This document shows, piece by piece, positions 7,471-8,876 of a DNA stretch of 9,173 nt; position 1 is the stretch's first letter; every line of letters starts with the position of its first letter. Under the pieces are notes generated by a model. The model was not told the origin of the DNA and ran no database searches. It saw nothing but the letters and a program-made list of their open reading frames with translations. Source of the stretch: Desulfocapsa sulfexigens (lineage in GTDB: Bacteria > Desulfobacterota > Desulfobulbia > Desulfobulbales > Desulfocapsaceae). Location: contig DQVD01000116.1 in assembly GCA_015661935.1 (NCBI GenBank), positions 1-9,173 of the forward strand, read 5' to 3'. Made by a program: the position numbers and the translations under genes.

Positions 7471-8172
7471 TTATGCCCGGCTTAAGAGATCTCGTTCAAC
7501 AAGATTGAGAAAATCAGTGGAAAAATTCTGCATTTCATTTTCTATCTCATTCAATTGATTTGCAAAATAATTATAAGCAATAACTGCGGGAATGGCTACT
7601 GCAAGTCCTGCAGCAGTAGCCACAAGTGCCTCGGAAATACCAGGGGCCACAACAGCGAGAGACGCGGAACCACGCATTCCTATGTCGTGAAAGGATGCCA
7701 TGATCCCCCATACTGTTCCAAAAAGACCAATAAAAGGTGCGGCAGAACCTGTGGTAGCAAGAAAGGAAAGAGATTTGCCAAGATGAGAAAGTTCCTGGGA
7801 TTCGGCCTTTCTAATAGCCCGTTTTAGATTATCCATTGTGGCAAGCTGCATTTCAAGCGGTTCATTGCTGGTGTCGCCTTCACTGCGGTTTCTTATTTTA
7901 TTAATTTTTTGCAGTTCAGAGAAACCAGCTGAAAAAACAGCTGCTTCAGGGCTTAAGTGGAAATTTTTTGCAGCAGCATCGGCATCGTTTAATGTTTTGG
8001 ATGACCAGAAGGATTCCAGAAAATTTTCTGTCTCTCTTACAGCTTTTTTAAACATCCTGGTTTTCATAAAAATAATAGACCAGGACGCTAAAGAAAAAAC
8101 AAGAAGGGTAAGCATGACCATCTGCCCTATGGGACCGGCATGCATAATCATATTGGAAATTGAAAGTTGCAC
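7471..8172 (-). CDS. tolQ: TolQ, MotA/TolQ/ExbB-family proton-channel component
   Basis: A 233-residue inner-membrane protein with three predicted membrane helices (about 14-36, 135-158 and 172-200). TTGSAAPFIGLFGTVWGIM (140-158) and APGISEALVATAAGLAVAIPAV (176-197) are the signature membrane segments. T153 and T186 match the pore-facing threonines of the TolQ/ExbB family. TolQ forms a pentamer around TolR and drives TolA at the division septum. The start is a GTG at 8172 with AAAGGA ten bases upstream. The in-frame ATG at 8151 has no ribosome site. A sigma70-like promoter is at 8251-8223. The pentapeptide-rich cytoplasmic loop (about 60-130) is poorly conserved, as is usual for the family. 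Confidence 0.95.
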   Translation of the reverse strand: MQLSISNMIMHAGPIGQMVMLTLLVFSLASWSIIFMKTRMFKKAVRETENFLESFWSSKTLNDADAAAKNFHLSPEAAVFSAGFSELQKINKIRNRSEGDTSNEPLEMQLATMDNLKRAIRKAESQELSHLGKSLSFLATTGSAAPFIGLFGTVWGIMASFHDIGMRGSASLAVVAPGISEALVATAAGLAVAIPAVIAYNYFANQLNEIENEMQNFSTDFLNLVERDLLSRA

Positions 8173-8222: not shown

Positions 8223-8251
8223 TTTATATATTGAATTAATTAAAAGGTCAA
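8223..8251 (-). promoter_or_regulatory. Sigma70-type promoter for tolQRA
   Basis: On the - strand TTGACC (8251-8246) and TATAAA (8228-8223) are spaced by 17 bases, each one mismatch from consensus. The -10 is about 50 bases ahead of the tolQ GTG. The -35 overlaps the stop codon of the small upstream zinc-ribbon ORF. The tol genes can therefore be transcribed apart from the fab genes. Confidence 0.7.
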
Positions 8252-8439
8252 TCTTCTGCAAGTTGACATAGTTTATTTATATGTTCATCCATTTGATCCT
8301 GATAATTTGAGACCGAAACTTCCATTCCACACGCCGTGCAGAATACAGTAGCATTTTGTCAACGGCCTCGTAACTCTGCCTTGGGCTCCTTGCAGAAGAT
8401 GCATTTAAAAAGAGGCTCAAGGCTTTCTTTCAGCTTCAT
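8248..8439 (-). CDS. Small Cys4 zinc-ribbon protein with one in-frame TGA (possible pseudogene or recoded gene)
   Basis: An unannotated frame of 64 codons including the stop. Its ATG (8439-8437) overlaps the stop of the fabZ-like gene as ATGA. The first part reads MKLKESLEPLFKCIFCKEP, with CxxC at 13-16. A TGA is at codon 27 (8361-8359). The same frame continues with NATVFCTACGMEV, with CxxC at 34-37, then a helical acidic tail ending ..LCQLAED. Two CxxC pairs 17 residues apart on both sides of the TGA are what an intact zinc ribbon looks like. The frame is therefore preserved across the stop. Explanations: a recent nonsense mutation (for example TGG to TGA), a sequencing error, or UGA recoding as selenocysteine. 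The last is weakened because codon 27 is not in a CxxU-type redox motif. I do not recognise the family and assign no function. Confidence 0.6.
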
Positions 8440-8876
8440 TTGAGAACAGCTAAAGTACAAGCGAAATTAACCTGAACAGCAATCTTTTCTCTGACACGAA
8501 GCGTTCCTTTTAAAAACCATGCACCACCAAGCGTTTCCTTAAGCGTTACTTTCATAAGGATGGTGTCACCCGGACCTACCGGGCGTTTGAATTTGATCCC
8601 TTCAACTCGTGTTAATACAGGCACACCCTCTTTAGGCTCTGTAGAGTCTTTTAAGCGAAGTGCGATAAGAAGGGCACCTGTCTGGAAAATCGCTTCGCAT
8701 AGCAGAACCCCAGGCAGGATAGGATTATCGGGGTAATGCCCTTTAAAAACATCCAGGTCTTCAGGGATATATTTTTCGGTGATAAGTGATGACTGGTCAA
8801 ATTCAATCATGGAATCGACCCAGAGAAAAGGAGCACGATGGGGGATAAGATCCGTAACTTTCAGATCCTGAATCAT
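8436..8876 (-). CDS. fabZ: FabZ-like 3-hydroxyacyl-ACP dehydratase
   Basis: A 146-residue single-hotdog protein, close to the ~150 of FabZ. IPHRAPFLWVDSM at 11-23 corresponds to the LPHRYPFLLVDRV start of FabZ. FKGHYPDNPILPGVLLCEAIFQTGA (44-68) contains the catalytic His47 and Glu61. FKRPVGPGDTILMKV (96-110) is the usual later strand. It removes water from 3-hydroxyacyl-ACP in the cytoplasm. The ATG at 8876 has GGAGGT nine bases upstream, within the last codons of fabG, and the gene sits 3 bases after the fabG stop, so it is coupled to the ketoreductase of the same cycle. It may serve primary fatty acid synthesis or a dedicated acyl or polyketide pathway upstream; the deviations from the FabZ consensus make me cautious on which. 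Confidence 0.87.
   Translation of the reverse strand: MIQDLKVTDLIPHRAPFLWVDSMIEFDQSSLITEKYIPEDLDVFKGHYPDNPILPGVLLCEAIFQTGALLIALRLKDSTEPKEGVPVLTRVEGIKFKRPVGPGDTILMKVTLKETLGGAWFLKGTLRVREKIAVQVNFACTLAVLK

Follow-up and report, generated by a model that had tools for sequence, protein, structure and literature searches.

A conserved small gene between fabZ and tolQ in Desulfocapsa sulfexigens, interrupted by one TGA, is a likely selenoprotein gene of the dual-CxxC type

Introduction

The closest described relatives of the gene analysed here belong to NCBIfam NF041197 (CxxC_Se_CxxC), the 'dual CXXC motif small (seleno)protein', which is listed as a predicted selenoprotein family (PMC13188914). A 2026 review places two entries under this model: OS_HP3, with the motif RxU, and DW, with the motif GxU (PMC13188914). 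The second entry, 'hypothetical protein DW', goes back to the 2025 deep-Sep survey, which reported it from two Desulfosarcina (PMC12013277) and credited Desulfolithobacter dissulfuricans GF1 with 22 known and no new selenoproteins. Assignment to the two entries has not been uniform, as SMF39960.1 was assigned to OS_HP3 in a 2022 review and to DW in the later one (PMC13188914). A survey of the literature by titles and abstract openings found no functional study of the NF041197 family. The family is already known as a predicted, uncharacterised selenoprotein; what is new here is the gene described below as a member.

This gene lies in the window, i.e., the whole 9,173-nt stretch of D. sulfexigens DNA that was analysed. 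Like NF041197 proteins, its product has two CxxC motifs that flank a Sec or Cys position six residues before the second CxxC. The NF041197 model scores the window protein at 35.0 bits (E 1.2e-8) against a curated cut-off of 40 bits; the protein is therefore related to NF041197, but is not filed in the family as curated. At E 0.001 or better, the same model matches every row of the A1 profile (24 of 24) and of A3 (28 of 28). Between its CxxC pairs, the window protein carries the motif GRU, and thus the GxU type, in contrast to the RxU/RxC type that characterizes OS_HP3 within NF041197. In the tree, which leaves out duplicates, fragments and decayed copies (L144, L146, L132, L020, L015, L129, L124, L127, and L128), GxU and GxC sequences separate from RxC and RxU sequences with branch support of 100/97. 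DW, as described in its sources, shares with the window gene the GxU motif, the NF041197 assignment and a Sec predicted from TGA, and the two are likely, by motif and family assignment, to be the same protein. They differ in that a number of Cys homologues are described for DW by deep-Sep (PMC12013277), whereas Cys was found in just 2 of the 140 GxU/GxC loci analysed here.

A frame with a single in-frame TGA

From the letters of the window, the initial annotation had described a 64-codon frame that starts by an ATGA overlap with the stop of a fabZ-like gene, contains two CxxC motifs (codons 13-16 and 34-37), and is intact except for a TGA at codon 27. All these points proved exact, and the frame lies on the minus strand (Table 1). 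Read from 8439 to 8248, the window sequence translates to MKLKESLEPLFKCIFCKEPKAELRGR, the internal TGA, QNATVFCTACGMEVSVSNYQDQMDEHINKLCQLAED and the terminal stop. The 64 codons include this terminal stop, which is itself a TGA (8250-8248), and codon 27 is the sole interruption. The start ATG (8439-8437) overlaps the fabZ-like stop TGA (8438-8436). The frame had also been said to escape standard ORF calling, and it is indeed absent from the list of open reading frames at 60 aa: ordinary gene finding overlooks a conserved bacterial gene next to tolQ.

Table 1. Features of the window around the interrupted frame
Feature	Position	Strand	Details
Predicted selenoprotein gene	8248..8439	-	63 codons + final TGA; CxxC-x10-U-x6-CxxC with Cys58
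In-frame TGA, codon 27, predicted Sec codon	8361-8359	-	TGA in 93 class + 44 phylum loci
First CxxC, codons 13-16, likely Zn ligands	8392..8403	-	Invariant, 24/24 A1 rows
Second CxxC, codons 34-37, likely Zn ligands	8329..8340	-	Within hairpin; invariant, 24/24 A1 rows
Cys58, possible partner of Sec27	8266..8268	-	Invariant, 24/24 A1 rows
Predicted bacterial SECIS hairpin	8323..8345	-	10 bp, loop GGC, -8.1 kcal/mol
fabZ-like gene, upstream	8436..8876	-	FabZ models E ~1e-30, below their cut-offs
tolQ, downstream	7471..8172	-	TIGR02796 246.5 bits, cut-off 221

Residues invariant over the 24 A1 rows are C13, C16, G25, the TGA residue, C34, C37, Y46, and C58. In the wider sets, the second CxxC is intact in 92 of 93 class loci and in all 44 phylum loci, and a Cys lies somewhere between residues 52 and 67 in 80 of the 93 and 36 of the 44 loci, respectively.

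Homologues across the TGA

Sequence comparisons revealed that the interrupted frame is widespread. The 24 best matches that 56 related genomes yielded reach E 5.9e-6 or better; 23 of them contain an internal TGA, which the translations put at the same column, and one, from genome G002, does not. Of 257 genomes in the class, 96 were matched by the A1 profile; the 97 rows obtained comprise 93 distinct GxU-type loci with TGA at this column (loci of identical nucleotides were merged before counting, and two decayed copies in which the TGA persists, L015 and L129, are included). The remaining four class rows are the decayed copy of G002 with CGA at the column, a contig-edge fragment in G243 (L132) that does not span the site, and two RxC paralogues with Cys codons, namely the G177 row and the second hit of G248. 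In the phylum, 53 of 395 genomes were matched in 54 rows, of which 49 were new: 44 GxU with TGA (L144 and L146, from genomes already counted, are left out), two GxC with TGC, two RxU with TGA, and one RxC with TGT. Genome G117 has the TGA form of the gene.

Over all 140 GxU/GxC loci, the site codon is TGA in 137, TGC in two (L170 and L171), and CGA in one (G002). Neither TAA nor TAG occurs at the column among the 93 class and 44 phylum loci. Their terminal stops are TGA (42), TAA (33), and TAG (18) in the class set and TAA (19), TGA (17), and TAG (7) in the phylum set, in which one is lost to a contig end.

The substitution pattern indicates that both halves of the frame are under purifying selection. 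For 91 pairs from 14 loci, pN averages 0.234 versus a pS of 0.824 over the 20 codons before the TGA, and 0.271 versus 0.703 over the 35 codons after it; pN is smaller than pS in 91 of 91 pairs on each side. With 93 class and 44 further phylum loci matching across position 27, the view of the initial annotation that translation runs, or once ran, through the entire frame is supported by homologues on both sides of a conserved TGA.

Two variants stand out among these homologues. In L168 and L169 (G328 and G360), the GxU frame continues into a C-terminal extension, perhaps a fused domain, with open frames of 170 and 186 aa. G320 carries an RxU and a GxU gene together (L173 and L174), each with a TGA.

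A SECIS-like hairpin downstream of the TGA

The sequence UAUUCUGCAC-GGC-GUGUGGAAUG (8345-8323) is predicted to form a hairpin whose 3-nt loop begins 23 nt downstream of the TGA. The published bSECIS model, as given in the review, specifies a loop of 3-9 nt, a stem of 4-16 bp, a G in the first two loop positions, a spacing of 16-37 nt, and a minimum free energy of at most -7.5 kcal/mol (PMC13188914); the predicted hairpin lies within all four of the published constraints. Only 1 of 200 dinucleotide shuffles of the hairpin itself is equally stable; the 48-nt stretch after the TGA, taken as a whole, is not unusual (26 of 200 shuffles as stable).

Comparison with synonymous recodings, which use local codon usage, gave a further signal. 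Nucleotides 16-42, numbered from the T of the TGA, are more stable than the mean recoding in 89 of 93 class loci (mean z -1.64). A scan of 14 offsets peaks here (z -1.67, 87 of 93 loci, 47 with p 0.05 or less), with z of -0.90, -0.54, and -0.45 at overlapping offsets and -0.31 to +0.41 at the others. The phylum set behaves similarly (z -1.24, below zero in 40 of 44 loci, p 0.05 or less in 13). The signal is weak in the Cys forms, both in GxC loci (z -0.43, n = 2) and in RxC rows (z -0.22; 8 below zero of 13 rows, which contain one gene twice, L030 = L138), while the two RxU loci give z of -0.33 and -3.04. At Thr35, ACG accounts for 69 of 71 Thr codons in the class set versus 19% in the surroundings; the phylum set is without this bias, with ACG at the corresponding place in 5 of 44 loci.

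All 93 loci have a G within the first two loop positions. In 67 of them, standard pairing extends over all six inner pairs; the outermost pair is standard in 31. Three pairs vary on both sides: 20-36 (T-A 59, C-G 11), 21-35 (C-G 85, T-A 4), and 26-30 (C-G 63, G-C 4, A-T 1, T-A 1). Covariation of the stem is modest, and it is only partly useful as proof of the hairpin because the stem covers the nearly invariant second CxxC. The synonymous-recoding test is the stronger of the two, and by this test the hairpin is kept beyond protein-coding demand. In two congeners (L012 and L013), most of the common stem is missing and a shifted hairpin forms instead, which also beats synonymous recodings (z -2.2 and -3.1).

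Selenocysteine machinery and the reading of codon 27

The genome that contains the window encodes selB (372.4 bits, cut-off 242.25) and selD (370.2 bits, cut-off 125). The latter has an in-frame TGA in AAGUAAKL, the known active-site Sec/Cys place of SelD. Of the three genes that the initial annotation had named as a check, selB is present over its cut-off; the assembly, 78.1% complete, gave no selA, and its tRNA-Sec (selC) match, at 42.1 bits, stays under the gathering score of 47. Among the 19 congeners, selA is over its cut-off in 17, tRNA-Sec in 16, and selB in 14. The complete congener G008 has the gene, selB and tRNA-Sec, and selA was undetected in it. More broadly, the family model finds no selA in G008, G024, and G031, three genomes of 1-2 contigs with selB and tRNA-Sec over cut-off; a relative's SelA protein likewise finds none in these three and does find SelA in G012. 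Masked stretches or another Sec synthase are possible reasons. G023 has four tRNA-Sec matches above the gathering score, and the extra ones may be unusual tRNA-Sec-like genes.

Where the TGA is replaced, the substitute is mostly Cys. A Cys swap occurs in two neighbouring lineages, and the other sense codon, CGA, is confined to a decayed copy. L170 and L171, which have TGC at the position, fall among the GxU rows on a long branch (fork 87/72). Database proteins P0007-P0011 also have Cys, P0007 and P0008 being named as Desulfatibacillum. P0002 and P0006 have W, as expected from code 4 translation, and the Leu of P0005 is unexplained. Furthermore, the source genome and 47 of the 56 relatives have an RxC paralogue that scores over the NF041197 cut-off and contains no stop; paralogues inspected at the codon level have Cys at the TGA column.

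Given the SECIS-like hairpin, the Cys in relatives, and the presence of selB and of a TGA-bearing selD, codon 27 is very probably decoded as selenocysteine, yielding a functional protein. The hairpin, with its GGC loop 23 nt downstream, would then position SelB and Sec-tRNA at UGA27. Three other readings were weighed against this one. That the TGA is read as Trp, or by non-specific read-through, is highly improbable: W does appear in P0002 and P0006, but code 4 translation would give W in any case, TGG is absent from the 140 GxU/GxC loci spanning the site, the sense codon found there is Cys and never Trp (apart from the CGA of G002), TGA also terminates this gene and fabZ in the window, and a SECIS-like hairpin follows. 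Still less credible are two separate short peptides, one of 26 residues and another started after the TGA. Met39 could serve as such a start in the window, but residue 39 is Met in just 59 of 93 loci, and the residues that precede it, 28-38 (H/Q/S-N-A-x-V-x-C-T-x-C-G), show conservation. Finally, a sequencing error or recent nonsense mutation, i.e., a fresh pseudogene confined to this assembly, can practically be dismissed, since the presence of this TGA in a further 92 class and 44 phylum loci and the purifying selection on both of its sides outweigh the draft state of the assembly (435 contigs) and the decayed copies in relatives (G002, G015, and G184). Thus, of the three options that the initial annotation had kept open, recoding is supported, and base error and recent mutation are removed by the homologues, with TGA at position 27 in 137 of 140 loci and Cys in 2.

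An intact RxC member of NF041197 is encoded in the source genome as well (L194 = G000:C8, 116-268, minus strand, 67.6 bits), so that a Cys-type and a likely Sec-type member coexist there.

Protein structure and proposed function

An AlphaFold2 model based on four sequences has strands at 21-24, 31-34, and 40-42 and a helix at 43-62 (mean pLDDT 70.6, pTM 0.48). A fold search of the PDB gave no match at E 0.001; the best hits, at E 0.09 or worse, were translation-factor ribbon domains, and the weak matches include aIF2-beta, eIF5, and TFIIS-type ribbons. Pfam searches returned sub-threshold ribbons only, among them Elf1 (PF05129) and Lar (PF14354), which share two CxxC knuckles with the window protein but match it under their gathering scores. 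The zinc-ribbon features noted in the initial annotation are likely real, as judged from the motifs, the sub-threshold profile matches and a moderate model, and the small protein is likely a zinc ribbon.

In the mechanism that we propose, the start within the fabZ stop makes it likely that the two genes are translated together. The two CxxC motifs would together offer Zn four Cys ligands. Sec27, which adjoins the second of these motifs, would act as the reactive residue and might pair with Cys58 as a reversible selenenylsulfide. The reading that we favour is a zinc ribbon with a redox-active selenol, and the protein may accordingly act as a redox switch or as a thiol- or peroxide-handling protein; this is the weakest step, and we hold it to be possible, at somewhat less than even chances. 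Somewhat less probable again is an alternative without a redox role, in which Sec is decoded but provides one more metal ligand, or the ribbon has RNA, DNA or a protein as its binding partner. The weak similarities to Elf1-type ribbons in profiles and to aIF2-beta, eIF5, and TFIIS-type ribbons in the fold search point in this direction. However, no match passes a curated cut-off or, in the fold search, E 0.001, and a residue retained as Sec rather than Cys is, as general knowledge, usually the reactive one. A bolder form of the redox proposal, that this is a phylum-wide zinc ribbon almost locked to Sec, in which a Sec between Zn knuckles acts as an undescribed selenium redox switch, seems rather unlikely on present evidence.

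Visibility in databases

The GxU subfamily is nearly invisible in protein databases. A single-sequence search of a protein database with the window protein gave no match, and profile searches against 5.77 billion proteins returned 2 matches in one run and 7 in another; these numbers are lower bounds because the search requires shared words. Furthermore, 11 of 14 scored GxU proteins fall under the 40-bit cut-off of NF041197, and annotation based on this cut-off would therefore skip them. As described in its report, deep-Sep demands at least two Cys homologues within the ten best hits (PMC12013277), and a clade in which Cys forms are this rare may be missed by it. If the ribbon is truly locked to Sec, methods that need several Cys homologues would be blind to such proteins. 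A seemingly 'broken' frame is likely a working selenoprotein gene, and its 63-residue product would serve as a small test object for the role of Sec in a zinc ribbon.

Gene neighbourhood and gene loss

Within 19 congeners, 13 retain the TGA form, although the frame of one of them, G015, is broken further downstream. The copy in G002 is the decayed one with CGA, and five congeners (G004, G009, G010, G014, and G017) gave no match. In G004 and G017, the gene is absent, and 86 and 72 nt, respectively, separate the aligned end of fabZ from that of tolQ. In G009, the fabZ-tolQ gap measures 481 nt and holds no recognisable gene. In G010, the stretch examined does not include fabZ, and tolQ went undetected in G014. 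An explanation of these absences by loss of the Sec machinery was considered and rejected, since all five gene-less congeners keep selA over its cut-off. The gene looks useful yet dispensable.

In the window, tolQ and then tolR follow the frame on the same strand. The order fabZ-gene-tolQ was rejected as a functional clue because both neighbours are present in just 29 of 93 class loci: TolQ only is found in 10, FabZ only in 2 (both at contig ends), and neither was detected in 52, a number inflated by short contigs and diverged neighbours. By eye, later genes of the run in the window resemble tolA and tolB. In L022 and L024, from two families of the order, the gene is followed by an ilvC-like gene, also recognised by eye, in place of tolQ.
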